Shown piece by piece: positions 10,948 through 34,131 of a DNA stretch of 57,121 bases. The first letter of the stretch is position 1. Every line of letters starts with the position of its first letter. Both the position numbers and the translations under genes were made by a program. The notes below the pieces were generated by a model that ran no database searches, was not told the origin of the DNA, and saw nothing but the letters and a program-made list of their open reading frames with translations. This stretch comes from Spirochaetales bacterium (lineage in GTDB: Bacteria; Spirochaetota; Spirochaetia; SZUA-6; JAFGRV01): positions 1-57,121 of the forward strand of contig JAFGHO010000020.1 in NCBI GenBank assembly GCA_016930085.1, given 5' to 3'.

Positions 10948-11624
10948 GACCGTTCATCCCCCCTTATTCTCCCGTCGACAATCATCACCTGACGCTCCGC
11001 CCTTTCGGAAACGGCGATGTCGTGCGTGACCAAGATGATAGTACGACAATTGTCGATGAGTCTGCGGAAAATACCGATTATTTCCCCGCCCGTGACAGTA
11101 TCGAGGTTGCCGGTTGGTTCATCGGCCAGAATTATAGCGGGTTCGTTCACCAGCGCGCGGGCGATCGCCACACGCTGTTTTTCTCCGCCCGAAAGTTCGT
11201 TCGGCCTGTGCTTTATCCTGTCAGAAAGACCCACCTGTTCGATTGCCGCGTGCACCCTCCTCTTTCTTTCGCTTCTGTTCAGCCCGGAGTAAATGAGGGG
11301 AAGTTCCACGTTATGGTAAACATTGTAGCGGGGCAGGAGGTTGAAGTTTTGAAATATGAACCCTATCTTTTTGTTTCGTATGTATGAGAGTTTTCTTTTT
11401 CCTTCGCCGAAAATATCGATTCCGTCGAGAAAATAGCTTCCCTCCGTCGGGACATCGAGACAGCCTATGATGTTCATGAGGGTCGATTTGCCGCTTCCCG
11501 ACGGTCCCACGATTGCGATAAACGACCCGGCTTCGATATCCAGACTGATACCGGTCAGCGCCCTTACCTCGATACGGCCGATAAAATATGACTTTGATAC
11601 GTTTGCGCACCGGATAAGCATCAA
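10944..11624 (-). CDS. MacB/LolD-type ABC transporter ATP-binding protein
   Basis: 226 residues, a single nucleotide-binding domain. Walker A is GPSGSGKST, the signature is [15 protein letters not shown], Walker B is [12 protein letters not shown] and the switch His is in LVTHD. The closest type is the MacB/LolD/FtsE group that pairs with FtsX-fold permeases. Here the ATPase is separate from the permease, unlike E. coli MacB where they are fused. ATGA overlaps join it to both the adaptor upstream and the permease downstream. Confidence 0.92.
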
Positions 11625-12811
11625 AACTCTTTTCTCATATTGTATGCGGGGATGGTGCCACCGTTCTTGCCGAGCAGTTGATAGGGAATATCGCTGTATA
11701 TTTTGTCTCCTTCGCTCAGTCCCTCCGTGATTTCCACATGCCGGCTGTCATTGATCCCCCGTTTAACGAACCGTTTGTTGATGCCGTTTCCCTCCGCGGG
11801 AACGATCACGTATTCCCTGTTGTCTTCGATAAAAAGTGCGGTGACCGGGATTGCGAGCACGTTTTTCCTCGCGTTGATCGCTATACGGACGACCGCGCTC
11901 ATGCCGGGGCGTAATTTCGTGTCCTGTTCGGAAAGCATGATTTCCGTGGAAAATACCTTTATTCCTTTTTCGTCGATCGCGTACGGCGATATTTTTGTCA
12001 CCGTTCCGGTATAGGCGCCCTGCGGATTGGCGGCGATGAGGATGTCCGCCGTGTTGCCCGTATCGATTTTGTAAATATCGACCTCATTGATCGAAACTCG
12101 TATGACGAGTCTGCGCAGATCGGCGATCGTAAACAGAAGTGTTCCGCTTCTGGACGATGATTCGCCGCTAATCAGTTCTCCCTCTTCGACATCCCTTATG
12201 AGGACGATCCCGGCCAGGGGGGAGAGAATGGATAACCTTTCAACGGTAATGCTTGAATGGGAGCCGATTTCGCTCTTAAAGAGAGTGTATTCTTCATAAC
12301 TCGCATTGTATTCCATTTCCGCAAGCGAAAGCGCGTCCTCGGTATTCTGAAATTCGCTTCTTGAAATAAAACCCTTTTCGTACAATTGTTTCTTTTGTTC
12401 GTATTCGGCCTTCATGTTGGTCATCGCGATTTCTTTTTCCTTGAGGTTGTTCACGAGTGAGGTAATGATTCTCGCCTGTTCGAGATCCGGTTCTATTTTT
12501 GCGATAACGTCGTTTTTCTCGACATAATCGCCTTCATCGACAAGTATTTCGGCCACCCTTCCGCTGATTCGTGATTTGACTTCCGCACTCGTTTCCGGTG
12601 CGATCTCTCCGTTTTCTTCGAGTATCTGCGTAATATCCGCGCGGTAAACACTGATAACGGGCGGGGTGTCCGGCTTTTTCCGATCGCCGCTATTTGGATT
12701 CTTCCCCGGATTCGACGAACCGCCGCATGAATAAAGCAGCAGGAAAACAGTGAGGATGAAAGTGCTTCGTATGATCATAGTCATTAAAAGTCTATTTGTT
12801 TTCACGAGCAT
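11621..12811 (-). CDS. MacA-like periplasmic adaptor lipoprotein
   Basis: 396 residues. A hydrophobic N-terminus ends in LLYSCGG, a lipobox that puts Cys near residue 29 as the lipid anchor. It is followed by a low-complexity Gly/Asn/Pro stretch. The biotinyl-lipoyl-like halves (SRISGRVAEILVDEGDYVEK and later LSPLAGIVLIRDVEEGELI) flank a coiled-coil hairpin (about 115-185), then comes the beta-barrel region. This is the adaptor of a tripartite pump, linking the MacB-like permease to the TolC-like channel. The ATG has only AAGG two bases upstream; a GTG two codons later (12805) is better spaced and may be the real start. It is the first gene of the operon. Confidence 0.87.
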   Translation of the reverse strand: MLVKTNRLLMTMIIRSTFILTVFLLLYSCGGSSNPGKNPNSGDRKKPDTPPVISVYRADITQILEENGEIAPETSAEVKSRISGRVAEILVDEGDYVEKNDVIAKIEPDLEQARIITSLVNNLKEKEIAMTNMKAEYEQKKQLYEKGFISRSEFQNTEDALSLAEMEYNASYEEYTLFKSEIGSHSSITVERLSILSPLAGIVLIRDVEEGELISGESSSRSGTLLFTIADLRRLVIRVSINEVDIYKIDTGNTADILIAANPQGAYTGTVTKISPYAIDEKGIKVFSTEIMLSEQDTKLRPGMSAVVRIAINARKNVLAIPVTALFIEDNREYVIVPAEGNGINKRFVKRGINDSRHVEITEGLSEGDKIYSDIPYQLLGKNGGTIPAYNMRKEF

Positions 12812-12949
12812 ACCTTACTTCCATACTACAGGAAATACCATGTTGAATCAATCATGAGATACCGCATATAATGAATATTCTCCCGGAGGTATTGTAAAAA
12901 GAAACAATGGGGAAACGAAAAGGTAACAGATTTCTTTTTCACCGTGAGA

Positions 12950-12979
12950 TTGACTCGGGATTGCCATTCACGCGATACT
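12950..12979 (+). promoter_or_regulatory. Possible promoter for the MBL-fold hydrolase
   Basis: TTGACT (12950-12955) and GATACT (12974-12979) are separated by 18 bases, about 100 bases upstream of the ATG. The surrounding 12812-13076 gap between divergent genes shows no other gene. Confidence 0.35.
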
Positions 12980-13076
12980 ATCGGGTATGAGGCGATTGTC
13001 CGGTTATTGATCACGGGGTATTCGCCCGGCAAGTACGAGCCGCTTCCGGTAAAACATATGAAAAGAGGAGGAGGAG

Positions 13077-19920: not shown

Positions 19921-20200
19921 TATTGTAGCTCCTTGTTTTTTTATTAAAAATTCCCTGTCCGTAAACCCGGATTTCACCGGATAACCGTGAACAGCTTTCC
20001 CTTTCATGTATGACGGGAGGTTACGGAATAATTTCTATCCCTTTATGTCGCGGCATATAAGCCGGACTGCTGAGTAAGCTTTACTATAACGTTAAAGAAA
20101 ATATCTGTCAAGAATATAGCTTGAATCGTATGGTACCGGGAGCGGCCGATTATAAAACCCTCTCATAATGCCGGTGAATGAGAAAAAGAAGAAAATGTCC

Positions 20201-20243
20201 TTGACAGATACTGGTTAAGTGAAATATAAATTAATTAAGTGAA
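20201..20243 (+). promoter_or_regulatory. Promoter with direct-repeat operator for the ArsR/ABC operon
   Basis: TTGACA (20201-20206) is separated by 18 bases from TATAAA (20225-20230). The direct repeats TTAAGTGAA lie at 20215-20223 and 20235-20243, exactly 20 bases apart, so they face the same side of the helix; one is in the spacer and the other covers the start point. The predicted transcription start (about 20237) nearly coincides with the GTG start codon at 20239, implying a leaderless mRNA. The layout suggests autorepression by the ArsR-type product. This promoter is the main content of the 19921-20238 intergenic gap. Confidence 0.5.
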
Positions 20244-20562
20244 TACTAAATTAGATTCGCCCAATGATATCAGTAAATCCCTGCCCGCCATGTTTAAAGC
20301 GCTCGGTGACGACACACGCTTTGCCATCGTTACCCTGATCGCGAAACGTCCCCTGTGCGGAAAGGCGATCGCGCGCATACTCACGTTATCCGAATCGGCC
20401 ATTTCGCAGCATCTGAAAATATTGAGGGAATGCGGACTGGTATCGGGTGAAAAACGGGGATATTGGGTGCATTACACAGTCAATCACCCAATTATAGATG
20501 AGCTTTTACAGGAACTCAAGAAGGCGGCGGGATCAAAGGAAAACGGTGTATGGAACGAATAA
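20239..20562 (+). CDS. ArsR-family winged-helix regulator
   Basis: 107 residues, a single winged helix-turn-helix domain. MFKALGDDTRFAIVTLIAK is the usual N-terminal helix, and LSESAISQHLKILRECGLV is the recognition helix. No CxCxxC or other classic metal-site motif is visible, so the signal is unknown. The GTG start has no ribosome site; it fits a leaderless transcript, or an internal ATG at 20290 could be used. The end overlaps the ABC ATPase gene by 13 bases, so it almost certainly controls the exporter it is co-transcribed with. Confidence 0.85.
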   Translation: MNTKLDSPNDISKSLPAMFKALGDDTRFAIVTLIAKRPLCGKAIARILTLSESAISQHLKILRECGLVSGEKRGYWVHYTVNHPIIDELLQELKKAAGSKENGVWNE

Positions 20563-21521
20563 TCGAGGCCAAGGGCTTAACGAAACATTACGGGGATGTT
20601 ACCGCGGTACGTGATGTCGGTTTTTATGTGAATAAAGGAGAAATTTTCGGATTTTTGGGCCCGAACGGGGCGGGAAAAACAACGACGATAAACATGCTGA
20701 TCGGTATGGCAAAAATAAACGGGGGGAAGATATACTATAAGAATGAAGATTTGACAAAAAATATAAAAAAAGCCCAGAATATTATCGGTGTTATTGCCGA
20801 CGAAAGCAATCTTTACAATGAAATGAGCGGTTATGAAAATCTCTGCTTTTGCGGGTCACTCTACGGCCTGCCGAAGCCGGTACGGTCGCGGAAAGCCCGC
20901 GAACTGCTTGCAGCCTTTCAATTGACGGAAGCCTCCCATAAAAAGTTCGGCGCGTATTCGAAAGGGATGAAGCGGAAACTGACAATCGCGGCGGCACTGA
21001 TTCATGAACCCGAGATAATCTTTATGGACGAACCGACGACCGGCATCGATGTCGCGAGTGTCAGACAGATCAGGGGCCTGATCAAACGCCTCAATGAGGC
21101 CGGGACGACCATTTTCCTGACAACCCACTATATCGAGGAAGCCGAACGCCTTTGCGACAGGGTCGCTTTCATTCATCGGGGAAGCATTATCAGAATCGAT
21201 ACGGTCGGCAGGCTGATCGAGGATGCACGGGAAGCCAATGTGATCGAAGTGGTTTTCGAACAGGGGTATACCGATCGTCCTTTACTGCCGGAACAACTGA
21301 TGCGGGAATTCCCCGATGTCGAATGCAGCCTGAAAAACGATGATACGGTAAAGGTAACCGGCCGGGATACAATCGACATAACACCGATCGTCTGCTTTTT
21401 ATCGGGCCGCGGCGTTCGCATCCGTGAAGCCAGATTGATACGGCCCACCCTCGAAGACGCCTTTGTCAAACTGACCGGCATCGAAATCGCCATGATGAAA
21501 AAGGAGAAAGAAAAAAAATGA
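20550..21521 (+). CDS. ABC-2 type exporter ATP-binding protein
   Basis: 323 residues. Walker A is GPNGAGKTTT, the signature-like segment is YSKGMKRKLTIAAALI, Walker B is IIFMDEPTTGID and the switch is LTTHY. This is the DrrA/CcmA-like group of ATPases that drive ABC-2 permeases for drugs, polysaccharides or lipids. The last ~100 residues form the extra C-terminal domain common in that group. It lies between the ArsR regulator (13-base overlap) and the permease (ATGA overlap). The substrate is unknown. Confidence 0.92.
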   Translation: MERIIEAKGLTKHYGDVTAVRDVGFYVNKGEIFGFLGPNGAGKTTTINMLIGMAKINGGKIYYKNEDLTKNIKKAQNIIGVIADESNLYNEMSGYENLCFCGSLYGLPKPVRSRKARELLAAFQLTEASHKKFGAYSKGMKRKLTIAAALIHEPEIIFMDEPTTGIDVASVRQIRGLIKRLNEAGTTIFLTTHYIEEAERLCDRVAFIHRGSIIRIDTVGRLIEDAREANVIEVVFEQGYTDRPLLPEQLMREFPDVECSLKNDDTVKVTGRDTIDITPIVCFLSGRGVRIREARLIRPTLEDAFVKLTGIEIAMMKKEKEKK

Positions 21522-22261
21522 AGGTGTCGAAATCGTTCACGGCGTTCCGGAGTATCCTGTTGAAAGATATGAAAAACTATTATCTCAAACCGCCGAACAT
21601 CAGCTGGGGAATTATATTTCCGTTCGCCTGGATGCTGATGATGTTCATCAAATCAAAATCCGCCTTTGATATTACGGAAGTATTCCCCGGCATTGTCGCG
21701 ATGTCGATATTATTCGGGACGACCTCGATGCTTTCCGTCACCATCACCTTCGAACGGAAGTCGCGCTCGTTCGAACGGCTGCTTCTGGCGCCGGTCCGTA
21801 TCGAACTTCTGGTACTGGCCAAAGTGACCGGGGCGATCCTGTTCGGGATTGTCAACAGCGTGCTGCCCGTTCTGATTTCCGTTTTATATTTCAGGTCCGG
21901 GGTCATGCACTGGGCGACACTCGTTTCCGGTATCGCGTTGTTGTCGGTCATATCCACATTCATGGGGCTGTTTATCGCCGTCTCGGCGAAAGAAGTCTTC
22001 GAGGCCCAGACCTATTCGAATTTCTACCGCTTTCCCATGATTTTTCTCTGCGGCCTGTTTGTCCCGGTACCGGTCCTTCCTCTTTTCATACAACCGCTTT
22101 CCTGTCTCCTGCCCGTTACCTATGGGGTCGATATCCTGCGGTATTCGATCTCGGAAAGCAACTTCCTTCCGGTCGCCTTCGACCTGGGTATCCTCGTTGT
22201 CTTCTGTCTGGCTATGTTTTATATCAGTATTTTCAACATACGGAGGAAATGGATCGTGTAA
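21518..22261 (+). CDS. ABC-2 type exporter permease
   Basis: 247 residues with six predicted membrane helices and the ABC-2 arrangement. An N-terminal amphipathic segment (AFRSILLKDMKNYYLKPPN) is followed by helices beginning ISWGIIFPFAWMLMMF. The TFERKSRSFERLLLAPV loop is typical for this family. A second half includes IFLCGLFVPVPVLPLFIQPLSCLLPVTYGVDILR. Its ATG overlaps the ATPase stop, so the two proteins are made together and would form a homodimeric permease with two ATPases. It converges on the lipoprotein gene with a 10-base gap. Confidence 0.9.
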   Translation: MKVSKSFTAFRSILLKDMKNYYLKPPNISWGIIFPFAWMLMMFIKSKSAFDITEVFPGIVAMSILFGTTSMLSVTITFERKSRSFERLLLAPVRIELLVLAKVTGAILFGIVNSVLPVLISVLYFRSGVMHWATLVSGIALLSVISTFMGLFIAVSAKEVFEAQTYSNFYRFPMIFLCGLFVPVPVLPLFIQPLSCLLPVTYGVDILRYSISESNFLPVAFDLGILVVFCLAMFYISIFNIRRKWIV

Positions 22262-22271
22262 TTGGTGCGGG

Positions 22272-22679
22272 TTAGTCCTCATCCGGCGGGTTGTCGAATC
22301 CGATGGCGTATACCCCCACGTACTCGGGAACGGCACCCCCGGTGTTCCAGCCGGTGTTGCATGTCCTCGTTCCCGAGCTTTCACCGGTATTCAAATAGAT
22401 CCCCCCGGACGGCCACCACGTCGCGGTTATATAATCATAGCTGACCGTATTCCCGCCCGATAATACATCATCGATACCGAACTTGACCTGGCAGTTCTCG
22501 AGGTCGACGGACCCGACATTCGTCAATCTGTATTGGATGACGACATAATTGCTGCCATCCAGGTACCATGAGACAACCTCCGCCTGCAGATAACATTCGG
22601 GCGGGAAAATATCGCAACCGGTCAATGAAAGTAAAACGGGTATAAATATAAAGAGAAAGAAAAAGATTCCCTTATTCAT
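22272..22679 (-). CDS. Small lipoprotein, unknown function
   Basis: 135 residues. The signal sequence MNKGIFFFLFIFIPVLLSLTGC has a lipobox LSLTGC with Cys at residue 22. The mature part (about 113 residues) resembles a single beta-sandwich (VVIQYRLTNVGSVDLENCQVKFGI, then DYITATWWPSGGIYLN), as in small FxLYD-like or adhesin-like domains, and ends in acidic PPDED. The start is taken at the ATG eight bases after AAGGAG, not at the ATG six codons upstream. Likely a monocistronic surface or periplasmic lipoprotein. Confidence 0.7.
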   Translation of the reverse strand: MNKGIFFFLFIFIPVLLSLTGCDIFPPECYLQAEVVSWYLDGSNYVVIQYRLTNVGSVDLENCQVKFGIDDVLSGGNTVSYDYITATWWPSGGIYLNTGESSGTRTCNTGWNTGGAVPEYVGVYAIGFDNPPDED

Positions 22680-22808
22680 GATTATGTCTCCTTTCATGGT
22701 TGATCACCTGTAAATATACCACGCTTTTTGAAAAACACGATAAGCACACGGAGATTCGTTATCCGGCGCATTTTTTACCGGAACGGGGGGCGTACCGGAT
22801 GGTTGTTT

Positions 22809-23237
22809 CTATTGTTGTGAAAGCAGGTCGCTGACTATCTTGATGAGCATTTCCTTTTTGAATGGTTTGAGAATATAGTTGTCGATACCGATCGTCAAAA
22901 TCGATTTGATTTCTTCTTTTTCCTGAACCGCGGAGATAAAAATGATTTTCGTGTTGTATCCGCCGTCGAGGCACCTGATTTGTTCGACAAGCTGGATGCC
23001 GGACATGTCGGGAAGTTTCTGATCCACGGTGATCAGGTGCGGTTTGTATTTGCCGAACTTCTCGATCGCTTCCTTGCCCGTCATGGCCGAAATAACGAAA
23101 TAACCCTGGCTTCTGAGAATTTTTGTTATCGATTTCACCACATAGGTGATATCGTCGATGACGAGGATTCGTTTTACGTTCGAGTCGGCGGGCGGAAGCT
23201 CGATAAGTTCGCCCTCAATTTGTTCTTCGTCGGCCAT
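22809..23237 (-). CDS. Single-domain response regulator (receiver protein)
   Basis: 142 residues. A flexible N-terminal tail (about 20 residues, rich in Glu) is followed by a full receiver domain: acidic pair IDD, phospho-acceptor Asp in LITVDQKLPD, Ser in IIFISAV and Lys in LKPFKKE. There is no output domain, so it acts by protein contact, like CheY-type or diguanylate-related adaptors. The ATG at 23237 is preferred over a TTG two codons upstream. The kinase is probably the one encoded at 23747-26137, but it could be elsewhere. Confidence 0.82.
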   Translation of the reverse strand: MADEEQIEGELIELPPADSNVKRILVIDDITYVVKSITKILRSQGYFVISAMTGKEAIEKFGKYKPHLITVDQKLPDMSGIQLVEQIRCLDGGYNTKIIFISAVQEKEEIKSILTIGIDNYILKPFKKEMLIKIVSDLLSQQ

Positions 23238-23360
23238 CTGCAACTCGCTTCATCGTATCGATCTTCATCGATATCAGTATAACATTCCATGGTTTGTTTT
23301 TCCATGGATTTTCATGGACGCCCGTGGTGAAAAAACCGGAGGCTTTCCGGGAACACGCGT

Positions 23361-23744
23361 CTAACCGGGCGAGGCCGGTCCACCCCCGTCATCCACCGCT
23401 TGTCTGATCGTCTCGATCAGTTTTTCTCTCCGCACGGGTTTTGTAATAAAGGCAAAACTTCCCATCCGTTTTGCCTTTTCACTCACGTTTTTGTCGATAA
23501 AACCGGTCAACATGATGACGGGAATATGGGGGTAGGTCGCCTTTAACTCCTTCAGCAGGATAAAGCCCGTCGTATCTTTCATCTTGATGTCACAGATGAT
23601 GACATCGACGGGGGAGCCGCGGAGCGTTTCGAGCGCGATCTCCCTGTTGTCCGCTTCAAGGAGGTTGAAATCGGTCTTGTGCAGCTGAATTTTTATGATA
23701 TGGCGAATGCGTTCGTCATCGTCGATAATAAGAACGTTCTTCAT
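23361..23744 (-). CDS. Single-domain response regulator paired with the histidine kinase
   Basis: 127 residues, a receiver domain only. Key residues are the Asp pair in IIDDDERI, the phospho-acceptor in VIICDIKMKD, Thr in MLTGF and Lys in ITKPVRRE. The ATG is preceded by AAAGGAG, which overlaps the end of the kinase gene; the kinase stop is two bases before the start, so they are coupled and are almost surely a signalling pair. A short Gly/Pro tail ends the protein. There is no DNA-binding domain, so the output is likely through protein interaction. Confidence 0.88.
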   Translation of the reverse strand: MKNVLIIDDDERIRHIIKIQLHKTDFNLLEADNREIALETLRGSPVDVIICDIKMKDTTGFILLKELKATYPHIPVIMLTGFIDKNVSEKAKRMGSFAFITKPVRREKLIETIRQAVDDGGGPASPG

Positions 23745-23746
23745 TT

Positions 23747-26137
23747 CTACTCCTTTACCGGTAGTTTGATGGTAAACTGGGCCCCCTCACCCGGTGAACT
23801 TTTCACGGTGATGAATCCGTTGTATTTGGTGACGAGCCTGTATACGATATTCAGCCCGATACCGGTCCCTTCTCCCGCGGGCTTGGTGGTAAAGAACGGA
23901 TCGAATATTTTAGAGATAATCTTTTGGGGGATACCCGGGCCCGTATCGGCTATCGTAATTATAATGAAATGTTCCTTACAGTATGTGTTGATGACGAGTT
24001 CTCCCCGGCCTTTCAACGCCTGGATGGCGTTGTTGATGATATTCATGAAAATTTGTCTCATTTCTCCGCCGATGGCTTCGAAGGGCGGGATATCGTTCAA
24101 TTCCTTGTTTACCTTTATATCGATAAAGTTCGGGCTGTAGCTGATAATCCGAAGCGTCTCCTCGATCAAATTGTTTATATCGACTTCTTTTGACTTTTCT
24201 TCTCTCAGACTGCGCGAATAGGTGGAAAGATCCTTCACGATATCCGAACATTGCATCGAAAAATCGATGATTTCCTTCGCGAGGTCCTTGATTTCATCAT
24301 TGTCGGTTTCATCGACAATCACTTCGGCGGTTCCGAGTATCCCGTAAAGCGGGTTGTTTATCTCGTGGGCGATACCCGATGCGAGGGTTCCGAGTGCGGC
24401 AAGCTTTTCCCCGCGAAGCAGCTGTTCCTGTAGGTCCCGTTGTTCGGTGATATCCTTCATGATAATGCCTATTTCATTCTTTCCGCCGGTTTCATCCGGC
24501 ATAGTGAACAGGGTATATCCGATCGTCCTCTGTCCGACCTGGTATTCCTGGTCGAGCATGTTCTTCTTTTGCTGAAGTCTGTCTATCTGTATTTTGAATC
24601 GTTCCTTGTAGTGTTCGGGGATTTTGAGAAAGTCAAAGACGTTCTCGCCCAACACGTTTCGTATTTCCTGATTGAAATTCTTGAGGTATGTCGTATTGAC
24701 ATATGATATTTTCAGGGTATTCCGGTCAAAAACGACGATCGAAGAGGGGATACTCGAAAGCACGTTGCGGGCGGCGCGCAGGGAATAGATATTGTTCATG
24801 GCGATTTCCAGCTGTCTGCCGACGGTAGAAAAAAACTGCATGTTTTTTTCCTTGATTTCTTTCCCCGACGAAAAGTTATCGAACCCGATCAGGTAAAAGA
24901 ACGTGTTGTGGACGGCCAGGGGAATGAAGATGATGTCATTGTCGTTCTCCCCCCCGATCAAATCTTTCTGTGAGATGATCTGCGGTCTTTTTTTTGTAAA
25001 AATGGATGTAATCCATCTTTTGTTTTGTGTGTATTGTACGAGTTCGGGTTGTTTTTTTATTTTACTGTCGAGTTTATTGAAACTCAAAGGTTCTTTGAGC
25101 ACGTCGAAGTAATTGTTCATGCAGTAGTAAAATCCCCTTTCAAAACCGATACAATCAATAATAATTTTTATAATAAGCAGGAGCATGTCGTCTTCCTGAT
25201 CTATTTTACTTATTTCCTCCGATATATAGTTGAGAATCGAGAGTTTGTTCGCTTTTTCGACTATCTGAAGGTTCGCCTCCTGCAGTTCCATATATTCTTT
25301 CTTGCTGATGGCGATGGCACGCTCGAGCTCACGCGTCCGCTCCTTCTGAATCTCTTCGTTCTCCTTTAATATGGTCCTGAATTTGAAGATTTTGTTGATG
25401 AAATAAATGATGGTAAAAAATCCGGCGGACAATAACAGGTGTTCTATTCTTAAAAGCGGTTCTTTTTGTACAAAAAAGAAAATAATCTCGCCGATCAGAA
25501 TACAGACGGTGCCGATGGTAAAGAGGATGTTTTTAAACGGGCGCGGTATCCAGCTGATCTCGTAGATACAGGATTCCGCCCCTTCCGCCGCGCACTGTAT
25601 TTCTTTCACTCTCGCAAAAGGAAGGTCCCAGAAACGGGGGATCGCCGCCGCTATTCCCTTGATCGCATCGCAATTATACCTGGTCTGTTTGTATCCTTCG
25701 AACAATTTGGATTTAAAGAGAATCTTCCGTCTTCGCGTCTGCAGCAATTCGAATTTGCCGATATTCGATATGGAACTCGTCAGCTCCGCGATACGTTTGA
25801 AAAACATACCGGGTGTGGCGAACAGTTTGAGTACGATCAGAATCGCCCTGAGCGACGGATAGGATTGCGGTGAAAGAACATAAATGCCCGCTTCGAAAGG
25901 CGCCTTGGGATTATCGGTAAACTCGACGAGTTTTTTCAGAAAGAGATTGTAGTAATCGAAGGAGATCCAGTTGTGTCCGTTTTCGAGAAACTCGATATCC
26001 ATACCGGTTTCACGGACGAACTGGATGAGGGCGGCCTTATCGTATTTCTTTTCGATATAAATGAGGAACGGTTTGAGAAGGCTGGTGGCGACATCCGGTT
26101 TTGTCTTGTCGATATTCTGAAAACTAATTCTGCTCAT
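23747..26137 (-). CDS. Sensor histidine kinase (ligand-binding-like domain, 2 TM, GAF, PAS, HisKA, HATPase)
   Basis: 796 residues. Residues about 1-205 are a soluble region ending ECAAEGAESCIYEISW-like (C-x-x-x-G-x-x-x-C), reminiscent of V4R or activator-type ligand-binding domains; this is a weak assignment. Two membrane helices follow (about 210-265), then a coiled coil, a GAF-like domain (about 300-450), a PAS domain (about 460-570) and a kinase core. The H box is SGIAHEINNPLYGILG (His near 590), the N box NIINNAIQAL, and the G boxes ADTGPGIP and GEGTGIGL. It overlaps the upstream acyltransferase-PilZ gene by 14 bases and is followed two bases later by its receiver. Confidence 0.88.
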   Translation of the reverse strand: MSRISFQNIDKTKPDVATSLLKPFLIYIEKKYDKAALIQFVRETGMDIEFLENGHNWISFDYYNLFLKKLVEFTDNPKAPFEAGIYVLSPQSYPSLRAILIVLKLFATPGMFFKRIAELTSSISNIGKFELLQTRRRKILFKSKLFEGYKQTRYNCDAIKGIAAAIPRFWDLPFARVKEIQCAAEGAESCIYEISWIPRPFKNILFTIGTVCILIGEIIFFFVQKEPLLRIEHLLLSAGFFTIIYFINKIFKFRTILKENEEIQKERTRELERAIAISKKEYMELQEANLQIVEKANKLSILNYISEEISKIDQEDDMLLLIIKIIIDCIGFERGFYYCMNNYFDVLKEPLSFNKLDSKIKKQPELVQYTQNKRWITSIFTKKRPQIISQKDLIGGENDNDIIFIPLAVHNTFFYLIGFDNFSSGKEIKEKNMQFFSTVGRQLEIAMNNIYSLRAARNVLSSIPSSIVVFDRNTLKISYVNTTYLKNFNQEIRNVLGENVFDFLKIPEHYKERFKIQIDRLQQKKNMLDQEYQVGQRTIGYTLFTMPDETGGKNEIGIIMKDITEQRDLQEQLLRGEKLAALGTLASGIAHEINNPLYGILGTAEVIVDETDNDEIKDLAKEIIDFSMQCSDIVKDLSTYSRSLREEKSKEVDINNLIEETLRIISYSPNFIDIKVNKELNDIPPFEAIGGEMRQIFMNIINNAIQALKGRGELVINTYCKEHFIIITIADTGPGIPQKIISKIFDPFFTTKPAGEGTGIGLNIVYRLVTKYNGFITVKSSPGEGAQFTIKLPVKE

Positions 26138-27626
26138 GCTGTCCCTGTAATTTCATTATTTCAAGAAGGTTTTTCAGTTTCTCTTTGGAAGATTTTCTGT
26201 TTTTTGAGAATTTGCATCCTGCCATGATTCCATCTTTCATGCGTCGCAACCAGACAATTCTGCCCCTCATGGTAAAGGTGTTGATGGTATTGGGAAAGCG
26301 GAATTCGAAAATAAGCAAATCATTCTTTTTTAACTGGTTTTTCGTTTTGATGAAAATACCGCTTGCACTGATATTATACGCTGTCGCGTTATAGATATGG
26401 TTCTTGTAGAGGTATTGTATGGAAAAATCGGTATAAATACGTTCGAAGTACCTCCTGTTGAACACATGCTTGATGATTTCGCGCGGTTTCGGTGAAAACA
26501 GAACGAAAAGATTCGGGATAATCTTGTTCAAAATCGGAGAGAGGTGTTTCATAAAAGCGTAAAGGGGGACGATCTCGGCTCCCATTTCGAGCTTTGGGTT
26601 CATGGTCGTTATCCCCATTTCGATGAGTTTTTTGTTCCTTTCGATCCCCATTTTGACACTCTGACACAGGATGTTAAAATAAAGTTTGTTTTCTTCATTA
26701 TAATTGTAATCGATCCCGACAAAAAGCGGGCGTAATGTATTGTCATCGATGATGACGAAATCGAATCCGATAAGGCTATCGCCTTTTTTAAAGAGTATCA
26801 TTTTCGATCGTTTTCCCAGGTATTTGTCCATATTCCTGAAATAATCGGGCGTGAGAATTTCCCGTTTGTATTCCTTTGCGTGTTCGTAAATCTGAAACCA
26901 GAGCCGTGTGCATTCTTCCGCGATATCGGAAAAAGAGTCGCGTATTTCGATATCGATTGTCGATTTTTCGAGGCTTCTGAGGAATCTGTTGATCCTGTAA
27001 CGGTACCTGCTTCTCATATCGGAAAGATAATCGTCAAAACTTTTCCAGTCGTTGACGATTTCCGAATTGGGAAGCATGTTGACCCGCTTGAAATGATCGA
27101 TGATAAGCCGGTTGTAAAAAAAGAGTTCTTCTTCATAAAAATCCCTGAATATGAGGATATTGATATTCTTCTCCCGGGCAAACGCCTCCATTTCCCGGAC
27201 GATGATTTCGAGAATTTCCGGTCTGTCGGATTCATCCGCATAGGAGATGGTATTTCCCAAAGCGGTCGGTGTGCCGCATTCGATTACCTTGATATAGAAG
27301 AATCTCGGGAAGAAACGTTTCCTGATTATGTCGATAATACGCTTCATTTTCCCCGTGTTAAAGATATCGAGTTCGAAACTCATGGCATAGACACAGGTAT
27401 GGGCGATAAGCCGGGTTCCCCTGAATATCATCAGATAGCGGTAATCGCAATCATTGATTCCGGACTCTTCCACCGCCCTGAGGTGGTCGTACGAACAAAT
27501 AATGCGGTCCTGCCTGAGGATCGAGTCCCAGAGGGATTTCTTCACATTTTTCAGGCTTGCGTATCGCTTCACCTCGAGAGGGGTCGGAGTGGTTTGTGTT
27601 TCTATCCTGTCTTTATTTTGCTGCAT
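26124..27626 (-). CDS. GNAT/FemAB-like acyltransferase fused to a C-terminal PilZ domain
   Basis: 500 residues. Residues about 1-370 form an acyltransferase-like region with repeated GNAT-fold features, similar to FemAB-like or 'peptidogalycan' families (YDHLRAVEESG, DYLSDMRSRYRYRINR, GIDYNYNEENKLYFNILCQSV). Residues about 400-490 form a PilZ domain: RRYFERI provides an Arg-rich start and NISASGIFIKTK matches the [DN]xSxxG motif that binds cyclic di-GMP. The combination suggests a transferase controlled by c-di-GMP. It overlaps the radical SAM gene upstream and the kinase gene downstream by 14 bases each, so the three are tightly coupled. Substrate unknown. Confidence 0.75.
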   Translation of the reverse strand: MQQNKDRIETQTTPTPLEVKRYASLKNVKKSLWDSILRQDRIICSYDHLRAVEESGINDCDYRYLMIFRGTRLIAHTCVYAMSFELDIFNTGKMKRIIDIIRKRFFPRFFYIKVIECGTPTALGNTISYADESDRPEILEIIVREMEAFAREKNINILIFRDFYEEELFFYNRLIIDHFKRVNMLPNSEIVNDWKSFDDYLSDMRSRYRYRINRFLRSLEKSTIDIEIRDSFSDIAEECTRLWFQIYEHAKEYKREILTPDYFRNMDKYLGKRSKMILFKKGDSLIGFDFVIIDDNTLRPLFVGIDYNYNEENKLYFNILCQSVKMGIERNKKLIEMGITTMNPKLEMGAEIVPLYAFMKHLSPILNKIIPNLFVLFSPKPREIIKHVFNRRYFERIYTDFSIQYLYKNHIYNATAYNISASGIFIKTKNQLKKNDLLIFEFRFPNTINTFTMRGRIVWLRRMKDGIMAGCKFSKNRKSSKEKLKNLLEIMKLQGQHEQN

Positions 27627-28983
27627 GGTCCTTGTTCCAGGCGGCGGCCCTGAATCGTTTCTTGAAATCGTAGAGATCGATACTGTCCTTGTTCATCCCG
27701 TACGTGAGCAGTGTCGCTACGATACTCCTGGTCCTGAGAAATGTTTTGAGTGCCTGAAACCGGACTTCCCTTTTCGTAAAAATCTCGTGGGCGATATAAT
27801 CATAACCCCTGATGAGGTCGATAACGGAGATGTTAAGGGGCTTGAAATTAATGTGCTCCGTATCGTAACGATCCCAGTCGGACGGATAGTTGTCATAAAC
27901 GAGTCTGCGGTCATCTTTCATCCGTTCGAATATCTTCAGCCCTGGGTATGGCGTCAGGATACCGATCTGAATCACATCGAGACCGCATTTTTTCATGAAC
28001 TCGAGTGTCGGCTGAAAAATGGTGTTATCATCCCTGTCATTCCCGAAAATGAACGCCCCCGCGACCGAAATCCCGTACTTGTGGATTGTTTTTATCGCCT
28101 TGATCATGCCTTCCGTTTTCAATTTATAATTGACGGTTTTATTAAGCTGTTTGAGTGTTTCGGGATATATCGATTCAATGCCGACATAGACGCCGCGGCA
28201 TCCGCTTCGATATGCCCATTTAAGGGCTTCGGGATATTCCGCGATATTGAGAGAAGCCTGCGTTGCCCAGAATTTATTGATTTTTCGGCTGACGATACCC
28301 TTACAGAGTTCGATCACCCTTTCTGCGCCCTTTTTCCCAAAGCCGAAAAAATTGTCGTCGATAAAATAGACCATTCTCTTCTTCAATGTCTGGAATTCGT
28401 CAAGCACATCTTTCACCGGCCTTACCCTGTACTGCTTCCCGTACACCTTGCTTATACAGCAATATTCGCATTCGAACGGGCAGCCCCTCGTTGTCTGCAT
28501 GACATCCATGATATATCTTTCCGAATAGAGATCTCTCCGGGGGATGGGAAGATTGTCGAGGGGGATTTTATCCCCGATATATTTTTTTTTGAGTTTGCCT
28601 TTTTCAAAATCCTTTATTAATTTCGGCCATACCGATTCCGCCTCACCGACAACCACCGAATCGGCGTGCCCGAGGACTTCATCCGGTACCATTGACGTAT
28701 GGACACCGCCCATGACGACTTTTACTTTCCGTTTTTTAAATTCCCCGCATAGTTCGTATGCCCTCATGATGTTGCTTGTCGTTGCCGTTATCCCGACAAG
28801 ATCGTACGATGCGTGGACAGTGAAGGGAGCAAGGTATTCATCGACGATAGTAATATCCCAATTCCCGGGGGTGAGTGCGGCGATGTAACCGAGATTAATC
28901 GGCGGCATACCAAGGGATTCCGTATCGCCAAGACCGATACTTCGCGATCGGGTTGCAGGATGCAATAAAAGTAATTTATTCAT
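27613..28983 (-). CDS. B12-binding-domain radical SAM protein
   Basis: 456 residues. An N-terminal Rossmann-like B12-binding domain (about 1-140; GLGDTESLGMPPINLGYIAAL, VMGGVHTSMVPDEVL) is followed by the radical SAM core with the cluster motif RGCPFECEYCC (CxxxCxxC). The C-terminal part is DUF4070-like or otherwise unassigned. The usual DxHxxG motif that binds the cobalamin base is absent. Such enzymes methylate, cyclise or rearrange many substrates and cannot be assigned from sequence alone. The start is the ATG after AAGGAGG; an extension of 10 codons is rejected. It is the first gene of the signalling operon and lies divergent to a PilZ protein. Confidence 0.82.
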   Translation of the reverse strand: MNKLLLLHPATRSRSIGLGDTESLGMPPINLGYIAALTPGNWDITIVDEYLAPFTVHASYDLVGITATTSNIMRAYELCGEFKKRKVKVVMGGVHTSMVPDEVLGHADSVVVGEAESVWPKLIKDFEKGKLKKKYIGDKIPLDNLPIPRRDLYSERYIMDVMQTTRGCPFECEYCCISKVYGKQYRVRPVKDVLDEFQTLKKRMVYFIDDNFFGFGKKGAERVIELCKGIVSRKINKFWATQASLNIAEYPEALKWAYRSGCRGVYVGIESIYPETLKQLNKTVNYKLKTEGMIKAIKTIHKYGISVAGAFIFGNDRDDNTIFQPTLEFMKKCGLDVIQIGILTPYPGLKIFERMKDDRRLVYDNYPSDWDRYDTEHINFKPLNISVIDLIRGYDYIAHEIFTKREVRFQALKTFLRTRSIVATLLTYGMNKDSIDLYDFKKRFRAAAWNKDHAAK

Positions 28984-29308
28984 TTTTTTCACCCTCCTTA
29001 TAGCGGCTGTCACGGATATCCCGTATCCGGTTTCCTGTATTTAGAGTGAGCACGTGTGTGAAAATAGGAAAAAAACGAAGATGCAAAAAAATGATTGCGA
29101 TGAGTCCCATCAATATAAATAATAATAGATTTTATCGACAAAAACAAATATTCATTTTTTTTTCTCTCCGCCTGTTTTTCTTGCTTTTACACCTTCAAGG
29201 TAATACAATCAATGGTAGTGCGTGTCACTGTTTTCGAACAAGAAAACGACTTCAAAAGGAAGTCTCTCCTTTGCTGGCGGATTTTTACTTGATCGAGGGG
29301 CAAAAACC
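28984..29308. other. Divergent promoter region (radical SAM operon / PilZ gene)
   Basis: About 325 bases, AT-rich, between two divergent starts. No gene is supported here. It must hold promoters for both sides, but no single -35/-10 pair stands out clearly. Confidence 0.5.
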
Positions 29309-29671
29309 ATGAATGAAAGCAAATTTATAAGCAGAAAAAATCCACGGGTAAAAAGTGATATCAATGCGGAATTTCGATCTCAAAGCCGCGAAAGCGGCTC
29401 ATTTTCACAGGGGATTATTACCAATTTTTCACGCTCCGGACTTTTTATCGCATCGGAAACCGTTTTTCAGGCGGGAACGCTTATTGAATTACGGGTATAT
29501 CTCGACGAAACGGAACATGTCGTCACGCTGAAAGGGACGGTCGTTACCCGTAAAGCGGACCCGGAGAAGGGAATGGGGGTTGCGATCGATATCGGTTTTA
29601 TTTCGGAGACCGATAAAATAAAATTGAAGGAATTCTTCGATCTCAACCATATTTACGGGTGGTTTTGTTGA
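29309..29671 (+). CDS. Single-domain PilZ protein (c-di-GMP receptor)
   Basis: 120 residues forming one PilZ domain. The c-di-GMP contact motifs are present: RKNPR near the N-terminus (RxxxR) and NFSRSGLFI (NxSxxG), followed by the beta-barrel strands. The start is the ATG eight bases after GAGGGG; the open frame upstream is rejected. Standing divergent to an operon whose second protein also ends in a PilZ domain, it suggests local c-di-GMP signalling. A GC hairpin follows the stop. Confidence 0.88.
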   Translation: MNESKFISRKNPRVKSDINAEFRSQSRESGSFSQGIITNFSRSGLFIASETVFQAGTLIELRVYLDETEHVVTLKGTVVTRKADPEKGMGVAIDIGFISETDKIKLKEFFDLNHIYGWFC

Positions 29672-29699
29672 AAATCCGGTGTACGAAGGGGTTCGCGGA

Positions 29700-29718
29700 G
29701 CCCGCTTGAATCGCGGGC
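29700..29718. other. GC-rich hairpin between PilZ and oxoamine synthase genes
   Basis: GCCCGC (29700-29705) pairs with GCGGGC (29713-29718) around a seven-base loop. No T run follows, so it is at best a weak or Rho-dependent stop, or a stabilising element. Confidence 0.3.
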
Positions 29719-29785
29719 CGTGCGGCACCAGGCCACCGTTATCATAATTAAAAAAAGAAAAGACTGGTGAGGGGGAAGCAGATAT

Positions 29786-31036
29786 ATGAATTCCGATAAC
29801 TATTCATTATCAGATTTTATCGAGTACAATGACAGGGATATTTTCAAGAAAACGTCCTTTTTTTATGAATATGCCCGGGATTATATTTCCAAGAAATACT
29901 TTACCTATTTCAGGACACTCCTTTCCGACTGCAGCCCGCGGGTGAAGATTCTTGACCGTTATACGGGAAAAGAAAAAGAAATGATCATGCTCGCGTCGAA
30001 CAACTATCTCGGCCTTTCTTCGCGTCCAGAAGTTATCGAGGCGGGCATTCATGCCCTTGAACAATACGGTTCGGGCCTCTGCGGTTCTCCCCTGTTGTGC
30101 GGTTATTCGGCATTACACAGGCGCCTGGAAGAAGCACTCGCCGGGTTCAAATCGAGTGAGGACGCGATGCTGTTCCCGACCGGGTTTTCAACGAATATCG
30201 GCACGCTTACCGCACTTCTCAGAAAAAACGATGTCGTCATAACCGACAGACTCGATCACGCGAGCATTATCGACGGGGCCCTTTTTTCAGGGGCTGTCTT
30301 TCGGACGTTCGGCCATAACGATCTCGAAAAATGTGAACGGATTCTCAAGACATATGACAAAGAAGGCAAACTCGTGATTATCGAGGGCGTCTACAGCATG
30401 GACGGCGATATCAGCCCCCTTCCGGAAATAAAAAAACTCTGTGATACTTACGGCGCCCGCCTTATGGTCGATGAGGCCCATGCGACAGGCGTGCTGGGTA
30501 AAACGGGAAGGGGAAGTATCGAACATTTCAACCTTGAAGGCCAGATCGATATCGTCATGGGTACATTCAGCAAGGCCCTCGGTGCAATGGGAGGATTCAT
30601 CTGTGCTTCGAAAGAGGTGATCAATTATATACGATTCTATGCCCGCTCCTACTTTTTTTCCGCTTCGCTTTCACCGGTAATCGTCGCTTCGGTCCTCAAA
30701 TCACTGGAGATCCTCGTTTCGGAACCGCAATTAATACAAAAACTTCGGGATAATATCGGGTACATGAAATCACGCCTTCTTGACCTCGGCTTCAATATCG
30801 GTCATTCATCCTCGGCGATCATTCCGATCTTTATCGGTGATGATATTTTGCTTCGCAAAATGGCGGTCGATATTCATGAGCGGGGACTTTTTCTCAATGC
30901 CGTCTTTTACCCGGCCGTTCCAAAAGGCAATTCACGGATACGGCTGTCTCTCATGGCGACACATTCGAAAGACGATCTGGATGAAGCGTTGAAAATACTC
31001 GAGGAAGTCGGGAAAAAATACGGCGTTCTGTCCTGA
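29786..31036 (+). CDS. Alpha-oxoamine synthase family PLP enzyme (BioF/Kbl/SPT-like)
   Basis: 416 residues. The core (about 60-410) has all family marks: LASNNYLGLSSRPEVIEAG, YGSGLCGSPLLCGY, DRLDHASIIDGA, VDEAHATGVLGKTGRGS and the PLP lysine in GTFSKALGAMGG. These enzymes condense an amino acid with an acyl-CoA: 8-amino-7-oxononanoate synthase, glycine C-acetyltransferase or serine palmitoyltransferase. An N-terminal extension of about 55 residues (RDIFKKTSFFYEYARDYISKKYF) is longer than in typical BioF and more like lipid-forming relatives. No biotin gene or thiolation partner is adjacent. It lies before ddl and could start a three-gene unit. Confidence 0.85.
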   Translation: MNSDNYSLSDFIEYNDRDIFKKTSFFYEYARDYISKKYFTYFRTLLSDCSPRVKILDRYTGKEKEMIMLASNNYLGLSSRPEVIEAGIHALEQYGSGLCGSPLLCGYSALHRRLEEALAGFKSSEDAMLFPTGFSTNIGTLTALLRKNDVVITDRLDHASIIDGALFSGAVFRTFGHNDLEKCERILKTYDKEGKLVIIEGVYSMDGDISPLPEIKKLCDTYGARLMVDEAHATGVLGKTGRGSIEHFNLEGQIDIVMGTFSKALGAMGGFICASKEVINYIRFYARSYFFSASLSPVIVASVLKSLEILVSEPQLIQKLRDNIGYMKSRLLDLGFNIGHSSSAIIPIFIGDDILLRKMAVDIHERGLFLNAVFYPAVPKGNSRIRLSLMATHSKDDLDEALKILEEVGKKYGVLS

Positions 31037-31052
31037 AACTTATGGGTACTTA

Positions 31053-31077
31053 TATAAACCTGTTTTGCAGGTTTATA
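31053..31077. other. Inverted repeat in the gap before ddl
   Basis: TATAAACCTG (31053-31062) pairs exactly with CAGGTTTATA (31068-31077) around a five-base loop, 17 bases after the synthase stop. No T run follows on the plus strand, so it is a hairpin without the usual terminator tail. The remainder of 31037-31259 shows no convincing gene on the plus strand. Confidence 0.5.
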
Positions 31078-31259
31078 GTGGTGCCCGTATTTGTTTTTCT
31101 TTTTGATTCCCGGAACGACAAGTAAGGCGGCAACGATCACCGCAACGACGCCGATAAGAATTATCCGGAGCAGCGGGAGGTCGTTGCTCCTGCGTGAAAT
31201 AGCTTTTCGATTCCCGATAATTATTGAATGAGGTATTGATGTCATCTTTCTGAGGGTGT

Positions 31260-32399
31260 ATGATACCGATTATTCCAATAACGGATATGTTTATGGCAAG
31301 GAAAATAACGGTAGGAGTTCTGTTCGGCGGCAGATCGGCGGAACATGAAATTTCATTACGATCCGCATATAATGTGATCGGTGCCATTAATAGGGAAAGA
31401 TACGGTATCGTACTTATCGGCATAGATAAAGGCGGGACATGGCGCCACTTGCGTCCTGATTTTTTTTCGGGATGCGGAGAAAATACTGATCGTCTCGATC
31501 TGCGTTCGAAAGGGGATCCGGTGTTCCTTTCTCCGGGGATGGACGGGAGAAAGCTCGTCGTCACCGTGAAACCGGAAACGGAGCTCTCCATTGATGTGTT
31601 TTTTCCCGTCCTTCACGGGCCTTACGGTGAGGATGGTACCATACAGGGCCTTCTCAAACTACTCAACGTTCCTTTTGTCGGAGCGGATGTCCTTGGTTCG
31701 GCCGTGGGTATGGACAAAGACGTGATGAAACGGCTCCTGCGGGACGCGGGAATACCGATTGCCAGGTTCCTGTGTTTTCGCAAAGGAGAAGACGAACGTA
31801 TCGGTTTCAATGGCATAAGCGCGGAACTCGGACTCCCGCTTTTTGTCAAACCGGCGAACCTCGGCTCGTCCGTCGGTGTGAGTAAGGTGGAAAGCGAACG
31901 GGAGTTCGATCGTGCGGTTTCCGAAGCCTTCGGTTACGACAAGAAAATCATCATCGAAGAGATGATAGAAGGAAGGGAAATCGAATGTTCGGTACTCGGG
32001 AACGAGAATCCCGTCGCCTCACTTCCCGGGGAGATTACAAGCAGGGACGGATTTTACTCTTATCGGGCGAAATATATCGATGAAGACGGCGCGGTACTCG
32101 GCATTCCCGCCGAACTTCCCGGCGGGGTCGTCCGTGAAGTGCAGGAATACGCCGTCCGCACCTATCGGGCGCTCTGTTGCGAAGGAATGGCCCGCGTCGA
32201 TATGTTTCTTGCCGGGGGCAACAGGGTCGTTGTCAATGAACTGAATACGATTCCCGGTTTTACCCGTATCAGTATGTACCCGAAATTATGGGAAATCAGC
32301 GGAATTCCTTACGATACCCTTATAGACCGCCTAATCGAGCTTGCCATGGATCGGTTCGAAAATGAAAGAATATTAAGGACGTCGTTTTTAACCGGCTAA
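31260..32399 (+). CDS. ddl: D-alanine--D-alanine ligase
   Basis: 379 residues. ATP-grasp ligase forming the D-Ala-D-Ala dipeptide for peptidoglycan. Family motifs include GVLFGGRSAEHEISLRSA (N domain), HGPYGEDGTIQGLL, a Lys-bearing KPANLGSSVGVSKV, and the C-terminal NELNTIPGF with metal ligands. The frame starts at an ATG four bases after GAGGG; the homologous sequence really begins near MARKITVGV, so an ATG at 31293 may be the true start. The C-terminal part is slightly longer than in E. coli DdlB. It stands between the oxoamine synthase and the DUF5312-like gene. Confidence 0.93.
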   Translation: MIPIIPITDMFMARKITVGVLFGGRSAEHEISLRSAYNVIGAINRERYGIVLIGIDKGGTWRHLRPDFFSGCGENTDRLDLRSKGDPVFLSPGMDGRKLVVTVKPETELSIDVFFPVLHGPYGEDGTIQGLLKLLNVPFVGADVLGSAVGMDKDVMKRLLRDAGIPIARFLCFRKGEDERIGFNGISAELGLPLFVKPANLGSSVGVSKVESEREFDRAVSEAFGYDKKIIIEEMIEGREIECSVLGNENPVASLPGEITSRDGFYSYRAKYIDEDGAVLGIPAELPGGVVREVQEYAVRTYRALCCEGMARVDMFLAGGNRVVVNELNTIPGFTRISMYPKLWEISGIPYDTLIDRLIELAMDRFENERILRTSFLTG

Positions 32400-32424
32400 A
32401 GGAGGAGCCAAAACCATAGATCGT

Positions 32425-34131
32425 ATGGAAGCGAGTTCATTATTTGACAAACTTGTCCTCGATCTCAGTTCCCAGGAAAGACGGGATCTGCTCGAAAAAA
32501 TACAGGGCGTGAAGAATGTTTCGGTGGAACCCCTTTTGACCGAAACCTTTGAACAGGAAGAGACCAATTTCGATAATGAATACGACAAGCTGAGTTTGTT
32601 CCGGAAAATAATTCTGTTCATTCTCTCCCTTTTTACCGGAAAGAAACGCCGGGTGCTCGTCGAAGAGTATCTGCTAAAAAAATTGCGGGATCGTATTTAT
32701 ACGAGACATCCTGGACTTGTCGATTTTTCCCGAAAGGTATTGCTCAAGGGATTCAGGGACGAAATTGAAAGCCTGAGCCGTGCCATTTCGATATTCAAGG
32801 AACCCCTTCACCGGGTCATGAGTACGGATCGCGGCAGTTTTTTTGCGTTTCTCATCAGTATGGAGCTCGAGTTTATTCAGCAGCGAATAATCGAGGAGAC
32901 GGATCCGGTCAATATCTATGATTCACAGCATTTCACCGAGGTCGCGGAAGTAAGGGGGGAGATGGAGCGGCGCTTCAGCCATATCCTTGATTCGATTTCT
33001 CCCGAAGACAGAACACGGATATATCAGTATGCGCTTTCCCTCGATTATTTCAACCAGTTGTGCGGTTTCAACTTCGACGATATCGTGATGCAGTTCGACA
33101 ACAACCGGTTCGGGGGCAGGGGCGCTTTGGGTTTTATGATCGCAAAGAACAAACTCATGAAACTTTCCGACATTCTTCAGAGTGTCGGCTATCCGCCGCC
33201 TTCGGATGCCCTGAAAGCGGTGTTCCTGTTTCATTACCACAGCATGATCGACGATCCTGATTTCAACATGCAGAAACGGCTCGAACAGTCGCTCGAAGAG
33301 GCGGATAACGGGTTCAACTATGTGCGGAGATTCAACAACAAGGTTCCCGTGGCCGACATCGTCAAATGTATCCTCAAAAATTATAATTACAGACCGCAAA
33401 AGATAAAGGGGGGCGAAGACTGGTTTGTTCTTTTTAAAAACTACTGGCAAAACCGCTTTGACGCCATGTTCAGGACGTTTTACAAGGAGAAAAAGGTCAG
33501 GGTATTGATCGAACAGGTCCACTATTTCCTCGAAGCGGATTTCGTTTCGGAACCGCAATATTACAACCAAAATCTTTCCTATGAAAATCTGGGAATAAAA
33601 TATTACCTCTCCGTCATATTCATCAAGAATTTTTATGAGCGGCTTTTTCTCCAGAAGATCAACAGGTATATGAAAGTACTCCTTATCAATGGAAATTTTT
33701 TCAAAAAGGAAAACAGAAGTGACTTTACCGACGCGTTTAACGGTATGAATGTCGGTTATGAAATGATAGGTGCCCTGGACAAGGATGTGTCTCCGGCCGG
33801 TGAATCGGGAGCCAGGCTCGAACAACTGAACTCGGAAGTAATCAAATCGAAAGAGGTGAGAAAAAGGGCTGAAAATCTGTTCAAGAGTATCGACGCGCGG
33901 GCAAAAAAAATAGTCGAGGACGGCATCAACTGTTTCACCATTATGATCAATGTGCTTGACGGCATCCTTTACGGTAAAATCGGCGGGAAATACGATACGA
34001 TATCGAATCTCAAAAGCATCGGGGGGCGGGAAAATAACGACCTTATCGCCGCATGGCGCAGTTCGATCAATTACTTTACGAAAGGACTTCAGCTTCTCAA
34101 GGATATCTATCAACTCGAAAGCAGGGGGTAG
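32425..34131 (+). CDS. DUF5312-like conserved protein (probable spirochaete family)
   Basis: 568 residues. The opening FDKLVLDLSSQERRDLLEKI, a hydrophobic segment RKIILFILSLFTG (about 60-72) and the all-helical body resemble the spirochaete family annotated as DUF5312; this is my recollection, not a search. One membrane-associated stretch and many charged helices suggest a peripheral membrane protein. No catalytic motif is seen. It starts 25 bases after ddl, next to an AGGAGG-like site, and is probably co-transcribed with it. Confidence 0.6.
   Translation: MEASSLFDKLVLDLSSQERRDLLEKIQGVKNVSVEPLLTETFEQEETNFDNEYDKLSLFRKIILFILSLFTGKKRRVLVEEYLLKKLRDRIYTRHPGLVDFSRKVLLKGFRDEIESLSRAISIFKEPLHRVMSTDRGSFFAFLISMELEFIQQRIIEETDPVNIYDSQHFTEVAEVRGEMERRFSHILDSISPEDRTRIYQYALSLDYFNQLCGFNFDDIVMQFDNNRFGGRGALGFMIAKNKLMKLSDILQSVGYPPPSDALKAVFLFHYHSMIDDPDFNMQKRLEQSLEEADNGFNYVRRFNNKVPVADIVKCILKNYNYRPQKIKGGEDWFVLFKNYWQNRFDAMFRTFYKEKKVRVLIEQVHYFLEADFVSEPQYYNQNLSYENLGIKYYLSVIFIKNFYERLFLQKINRYMKVLLINGNFFKKENRSDFTDAFNGMNVGYEMIGALDKDVSPAGESGARLEQLNSEVIKSKEVRKRAENLFKSIDARAKKIVEDGINCFTIMINVLDGILYGKIGGKYDTISNLKSIGGRENNDLIAAWRSSINYFTKGLQLLKDIYQLESRG

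Follow-up and report, generated by a model that had tools for sequence, protein, structure and literature searches.

In alpha-hydroxyketone signalling, the alpha-oxoamine synthases CqsA and LqsA are encoded with the sensor kinases CqsS and LqsS. In bacterial ceramide synthesis, the serine palmitoyltransferase (SPT) Spt and the N-acyltransferase bCerS act in the cytoplasm, where bCerS acylates the amino ketone (cited passages of PMC11087976); YghO is the E. coli counterpart of CC_1154 (abridged from PMC9386255). Metagenomes of the Black Sea contain Spt-like genes with neither bCerS nor CerR nearby, for which possible non-homologous replacements were suggested (excerpt of PMC11334938). HfsK of Caulobacter is a FemX-like GNAT enzyme, thought to act on holdfast polysaccharide, that binds cyclic di-GMP (c-di-GMP) with the aid of a 25-residue C-terminal tail (cited passages of PMC5362036). 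Here we describe a locus that encodes an SPT-like synthase, a FemAB_like acyltransferase, a sensor histidine kinase and PilZ proteins in a Spirochaetales bacterium (assembly GCA_016930085.1, contig JAFGHO010000020.1, positions 1 to 57,121; this whole stretch of 57,121 nucleotides is called the window). We propose, with a probability of about 0.5, that this cassette makes and senses a sphingolipid-like lipid, with c-di-GMP control in this spirochaete family.

A previous description made from the letters alone (the sequence-only reading) had listed overlapping radical S-adenosylmethionine (SAM), acyltransferase-PilZ, kinase and receiver genes, a further receiver downstream and a divergent PilZ gene, and all six are present. 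The minus strand carries, in order, a B12-binding radical SAM enzyme (27613-28983), a FemAB_like-PilZ fusion (26124-27626), a histidine kinase (23747-26137), a first receiver (REC1, 23361-23744) and a second receiver (REC2, about 22809-23237). The radical SAM gene overlaps the fusion gene by 14 bp, as does the fusion gene the kinase gene, and gaps of 2 bp and 117 bp precede the first and the second receiver, respectively. On the plus strand, the PilZ gene (29309-29671) is followed after 114 bp by a gene for a pyridoxal phosphate enzyme (29786-31036). Three gene starts were revised. For the PilZ protein, ATG 29309 is the most likely start instead of 29222, as the orthologues in L074 and L075 align from there (L and G numbers denote the loci and genomes compared). 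The radical SAM protein most likely starts at ATG 28983, with the ribosome-site-like aaggagg upstream and the L033 homologue aligning from residue 11, and the corrected start of the second receiver is about 23237.

The best solved relative of the pyridoxal phosphate enzyme is the SPT of Sphingobacterium with 317 bits, and the next enzyme scores 271 bits. A tree of 29 proteins grouped it with the SPTs of Sphingobacterium and E. coli BL21 in a starred clade (99/98), leaving KBL, BioF and HemA outside; long branches make the placement of the E. coli SPT, KBL-like and HemA rows less sure. The lysine motif GTFSK is present in the window enzyme and in most cassette relatives. By sequence, the enzyme is an SPT-like member of the alpha-oxoamine synthases, with serine and a palmitoyl thioester as putative substrates, and it points to a long-chain amino-ketone (sphingoid-like) lipid and not to an unspecified acyl transfer. 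The synthases of G307, G326, G303 and G306 (L120-L123) lie in other gene surroundings, with neither a FemAB_like gene nor the cassette kinase, and three of these four (L068, L071 and L073 in the tree) are placed inside the cassette clade via a weakly supported branch.

The fusion protein matches FemAB_like (PF04339) with 57.7 bits (cut-off 27) and PilZ (PF07238) with 52.8 bits (cut-off 22.5), and its acyltransferase profile showed full-length similarity to strong PF04339 members of related genomes with a probability of 98.5. The predicted structure of the acyltransferase, with a predicted local distance difference test score (pLDDT) of 86.7, is nearest to the solved folds of FemX, FemA and Sbb17, followed lower down by A-PGS/MprF domains and N-myristoyltransferase. 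PDB sequence searches with the acyltransferase and with the kinase sensor domain yielded nothing useful and exclude no PDB family. Similar to the Spt-bCerS-CerR pathway of Caulobacter and E. coli BL21, the cassette pairs an SPT-type synthase with a GNAT-type N-acyltransferase, and the synthases of both share a clade. However, the cassette acyltransferase belongs to PF04339 and not to the YghO/bCerS family, and kinase, receivers and PilZ are added. We dropped the assignment of the acyltransferase as a bCerS orthologue, since YghO has neither a PF04339 match nor profile similarity to it; for the same reason, a PF04339 match in Caulobacter is not evidence for bCerS. The query genome (G000) gave no YghO-like match. 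A FemAB_like partner would fit the Black Sea report of Spt-like genes without bCerS or CerR nearby (PMC11334938, excerpt). HfsK resembles the cassette enzyme in being a FemX-like tandem GNAT protein with a C-terminal control element, and thus provides a precedent for c-di-GMP control of such an enzyme; it differs in that its control relies on a short tail, whereas a PilZ domain would serve here, and the cited passages of PMC5362036 report no SPT-like partner for it.

Three other arrangements involve YghO-like or FemAB-like proteins. In G087, which also carries the cassette, a second SPT-like gene and a YghO-like gene flank a 273-aa gene at L114:2097-5379. In G299, of the same bacterial family as the window, L055:6280-14495 holds four B12-radical SAM genes, a FemAB_like paralogue and a YghO/bCerS-like gene. 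In a 619-aa protein of family f32 (L039:8233-10092), a VTT membrane domain precedes a part resembling FemAB-type GNAT proteins, and other f32 matches are of similar length.

The kinase comprises a sensor domain, membrane helices and, by Pfam, PAS, HisKA and HATPase domains; its full-length orthologues share 50-59% identity within the same family and 33% in L124. Its residues 1-291 were modelled by AlphaFold2 from 11 sequences with a pLDDT of 84.7. In this predicted model, the sensor domain (residues 16-197; 25547-26092, minus strand) matches the H-NOX fold over its whole length (Foldseek E 9e-7; VIA Z 15.1, 172 aligned, root-mean-square deviation 3.0), and TRAPP/Bet3 proteins with a Z of about 8. 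However, a function as an H-NOX heme sensor was rejected, as the 11 sensor rows contain no invariant or near-invariant heme-ligand histidine; moreover, the HNOB profile of Pfam did not match the kinase at E up to 1. Instead, all 11 sequences share the motif C-x22-[E/H]-x2-C-x7-C, in which three cysteines (C-x25-C-x7-C) are invariant and which corresponds to the metal-site-like C156-E179-C182-C190 of the window kinase. This cysteine spacing equals that of the zinc site (cysteines 151/177/185) in the phenol-sensing V4R domain of DmpR, although the glutamate position given in the cited passages of PMC7264223 differs and the V4R profile (DmpR/MopR) stays below its cut-off (13 vs 31 bits for the window, 18.5 bits for L082). 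The simplest inference is a metal-stabilised pocket that would accommodate a hydrophobic ligand.

Both receivers stand alone. REC1 (PF00072, E 1e-26) has orthologues adjoining the kinase in L074 (68%), L053 (48%) and L124 (39%), and REC2 (PF00072, E 3e-25) has a 64% orthologue behind the kinase and first receiver in L074. In G102 (L125:9126-11225 and 11610-13073), a distant relative of the sensor domain forms one protein with GAF and HD-GYP domains and adjoins a B12-radical SAM gene; the fusion has an intact HHEKLDGSGYP motif, and the neighbouring radical SAM protein is 32% identical to that of the window.

Nine loci with a clear FemAB_like gene were compared: the window, L053 (G296), L054 (G297), L031 (G174), L032 (G087), L033 (G131), L034 (G027), L082 from a Verrucomicrobia metagenome-assembled genome and L083 from one of Ca. 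Desantisbacteria. They span three spirochaete families and these two additional lineages; the weaker FemAB loci L035-L044, L055 and the fusion loci L056, L057 and L063 were set apart. The synthase lies within three genes of FemAB_like in eight of the nine loci (exception L054), and a kinase with the same sensor domain is found in seven (exceptions L054 and L034). In G297 and G027, the kinase sits elsewhere in the genome beside a radical SAM gene and a receiver. The G297 locus L074 reads synthase, PilZ, radical SAM and then, divergently, kinase, receiver, receiver (73, 44, 33, 59, 68 and 64% identity), and the G027 locus L124 reads radical SAM, kinase (33% over the full length), receiver. FemAB-like and synthase parts are even joined in single polypeptides of 795-820 aa (L063:8156-10618, L057:8158-10545, L056:5808-8195); in L063, a 364-aa gene overlaps the downstream end of the fusion gene. 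Among the weaker loci, L037 pairs a FemAB-related gene with two radical SAM genes but lacks a synthase.

Among 296 genomes of the phylum, FemAB_like reached E 1e-50 or better in five and the sensor domain likewise in five, and these are the same five (G000, G027, G087, G131, G174). The naive chance figure of 5e-11 overstates the co-occurrence, since the five include the query genome and three members of one family and also served to build the profiles. The seven genomes with weak sensor-domain matches (E 1e-16 to 1e-24) and the four with weak FemAB matches (E 1e-22 to 1e-40) do not overlap; five of the seven weak sensor-domain loci were inspected (L125-L129), and none has a FemAB_like or synthase gene, while L125 and L129 have a related radical SAM gene nearby. 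Recurrence of the gene set outside this family, also in other phyla, goes beyond chance, and synthase, acyltransferase and kinase are well supported as one functional unit. The gene order, whose conservation in other spirochaetes the sequence-only reading had proposed to check, is not confined to this genome. Its idea of a dedicated signalling-plus-modification cassette with c-di-GMP input is supported by the recurrence of the gene set (L053, L074, L031-L033, L082, L083, L124) and by the intact PilZ motifs; it had omitted the SPT-like synthase, and PilZ is not universal.

RxxxR and [D/N]xSxxG are the c-di-GMP motifs of PilZ receptors, and both are kept in all seven PilZ domains examined, namely the two of the window and five of relatives. 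The domain of the acyltransferase fusion (26163-26459, minus strand) reads RYFER ... NISASG. The single-domain protein (PF07238) reads RKNPR ... NFSRSG and has a conserved C-terminal HIYGWFC; in L074 and L075, orthologues with 44% identity immediately precede the synthase. The PilZ part of the acyltransferase passes the Pfam threshold in three of the nine FemAB loci (window, L053, L054), L034 has the motifs only, and the acyltransferase is not fused to PilZ in the two loci from other phyla or in the f50 loci. Since the fusion is not universal, c-di-GMP control looks like a later addition to an older core. The single-domain PilZ gene precedes the synthase in three of four same-family genomes with an orthologous synthase (G000, G297 and G299; not G296); in G298, the fifth genome of the family, the synthase relative reaches only 37% identity, and the strong PF04339 protein there is of the other type. 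With 36 PilZ matches in the query genome, several of them arranged in tandem (C70, C104, C110), a PilZ gene nearby means little by itself. Nevertheless, based on the intact motifs and the gene fusion, it is plausible that c-di-GMP acts on the cassette in this spirochaete family.

The radical SAM protein combines B12-binding and radical SAM domains (PF02310 and PF04055), contains CxxxCxxC, and falls below the cut-offs of the lipid-enzyme families HpnJ, ladderane and HpnR (102.7/577.6, 97.9/360 and 91.2/650 bits). Such a gene lies beside the cassette kinase or in its gene group in four of nine genomes (G000, G297, G131, G027). The homologue in the L033 cassette is 52% identical to that of the window, compared with 33% for that of L074, which may be a paralogue; its genome, G297, has 16 radical SAM matches of this type.

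From gene order, domains, motifs, predicted folds and co-occurrence, we infer which substrates, product and ligand are involved, that c-di-GMP is bound and in which direction control runs. The SPT-like synthase would catalyse the condensation of serine, or a related amino acid, with a fatty-acyl thioester, yielding a long-chain amino ketone. The double-GNAT protein FemAB_like would then place an acyl or aminoacyl group on the amine of this ketone, filling the bCerS role of known ceramide pathways from a different protein family; the product is likely a sphingolipid-like two-chain lipid. In the subset of loci that have it, the B12-radical SAM enzyme might modify the lipid further, such as by C-methylation or by forming a C-C bond. 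The kinase, which is membrane-bound, would use its H-NOX-fold domain to detect a hydrophobic ligand, probably the lipid itself or one of its precursors, and would phosphorylate the stand-alone receivers. Within this family, c-di-GMP would act on the acyltransferase via the fused PilZ domain, and the second PilZ protein, whose gene directly precedes the synthase gene, may act on the same pathway. A FadL-type porin gene at or close to the synthase in L033 and L082, and a sensor domain present only once in the query genome, also favour this reading.

Several observations weigh against this proposal. The synthase scores below the curated SPT cut-offs (397.7 vs 640 bits for NF047600, 332.7 vs 500 for NF047599), and the nearest folds of the acyltransferase are those of the aminoacyl-tRNA-dependent FemX and FemA. 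A comparison by hhalign gave no sequence relationship between FemAB_like and YghO, which is the bCerS relative of E. coli (probability 0.1%, E 0.45). No CerR reductase was seen in the cassette, where no search aimed at CerR was made. The separate SPT-like and YghO-like cluster of G087 means that the cassette need not make ordinary ceramide, which weakened the idea that it replaces the ceramide pathway. The radical SAM gene is missing from the loci of G296, G174 and G087 and from L082 and L083. Lastly, the receivers have no output domain, and hence no target of the kinase is evident.

The cassette might also be a lipid quorum-sensing or autocrine circuit, in which a diffusible signal, a long-chain amino- or acylamino-ketone, is produced by the synthase with the FemAB_like and radical SAM enzymes and sensed by the co-encoded kinase. 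By analogy with CqsA/CqsS and LqsA/LqsS, an alpha-oxoamine synthase, a dedicated kinase and a receiver keep together in different phyla; in L083, a LuxR-type response regulator comes next, a FadL-type porin lies beside or near the synthase in L082 and L033, and the sensor domain occurs once in the query genome, only in the cassette. However, this synthase is SPT-like and far from the autoinducer synthases (CqsA/LqsA), with 217.8 vs 428 bits for NF005526 and 119 bits against CqsA compared with 317 against SPT. The sensor has an H-NOX-like predicted fold, and the acyltransferase and radical SAM partners distinguish the cassette further, the former suggesting a two-chain membrane lipid over a small signal. 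The open-licence literature yielded no work joining 'oxoamine synthase', 'histidine kinase' and 'autoinducer'. We regard a diffusible signal as unlikely, although it competes best with a sphingolipid-like lipid that is made and sensed by the cassette. A wider version, which we offer as a speculation of low probability, is a cross-phylum lipid messenger circuit, in which a sphingoid-type signal is bound by a heme-free H-NOX-fold kinase and c-di-GMP gates its synthesis via PilZ in spirochaetes; the sensor-domain relative on the HD-GYP phosphodiesterase of G102 would then close the loop from lipid back to c-di-GMP.

It is rather doubtful that FemAB_like is an aminoacyl-tRNA-dependent transferase, as FemX or MprF, acting on the amino-ketone lipid, another lipid or a peptidoglycan precursor, such that c-di-GMP controls surface charge. 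The order of its structural matches, with FemX, FemA and Sbb17 ahead of A-PGS/MprF, is in line with this, but likeness at 12% identity does not fix the donor, N-myristoyltransferase is among the same matches, and fusion and adjacency with the SPT-like synthase favour a lipid acceptor over peptidoglycan. A chance neighbourhood of unrelated lipid enzyme genes beside a common two-component system is very improbable, since the linkage is repeated across three phyla and FemAB and sensor domain coincide in 5/296 genomes, even though PilZ and radical SAM paralogues are abundant in the genomes counted above and both genes vary among loci.

Around the cassette, a small ArsR-like regulator gene, an ABC ATPase and an ABC-2-like permease (all assigned by eye) lie upstream of the region on the opposite strand (20239-22261, plus), and a 141-aa small secreted or lipoprotein-like open reading frame at 22272-22697 (minus) has no Pfam match above cut-off. 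The divergent intergenic region between the two transcription units spans 28984-29308. A Rfam search of 20000-33000 matched no RNA element there or elsewhere in that range; promoter-like sites (13 vs 13.3 expected from shuffles) and terminator-like sites (16 vs 11.2 expected) were not used.

In the open-licence literature, neither a description of this cassette nor a direct link from c-di-GMP to sphingolipid synthesis turned up. Bacterial sphingolipids are now thought to be common. If the sphingolipid-like reading is true, SPT-like enzymes would have another acyltransferase partner that is unrelated to the first, a sensor kinase would be dedicated to the lipid, and the gating of a lipid-forming enzyme by c-di-GMP could be put to the test. 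It would suggest that these cells tune or sense an unusual lipid when they change lifestyle.

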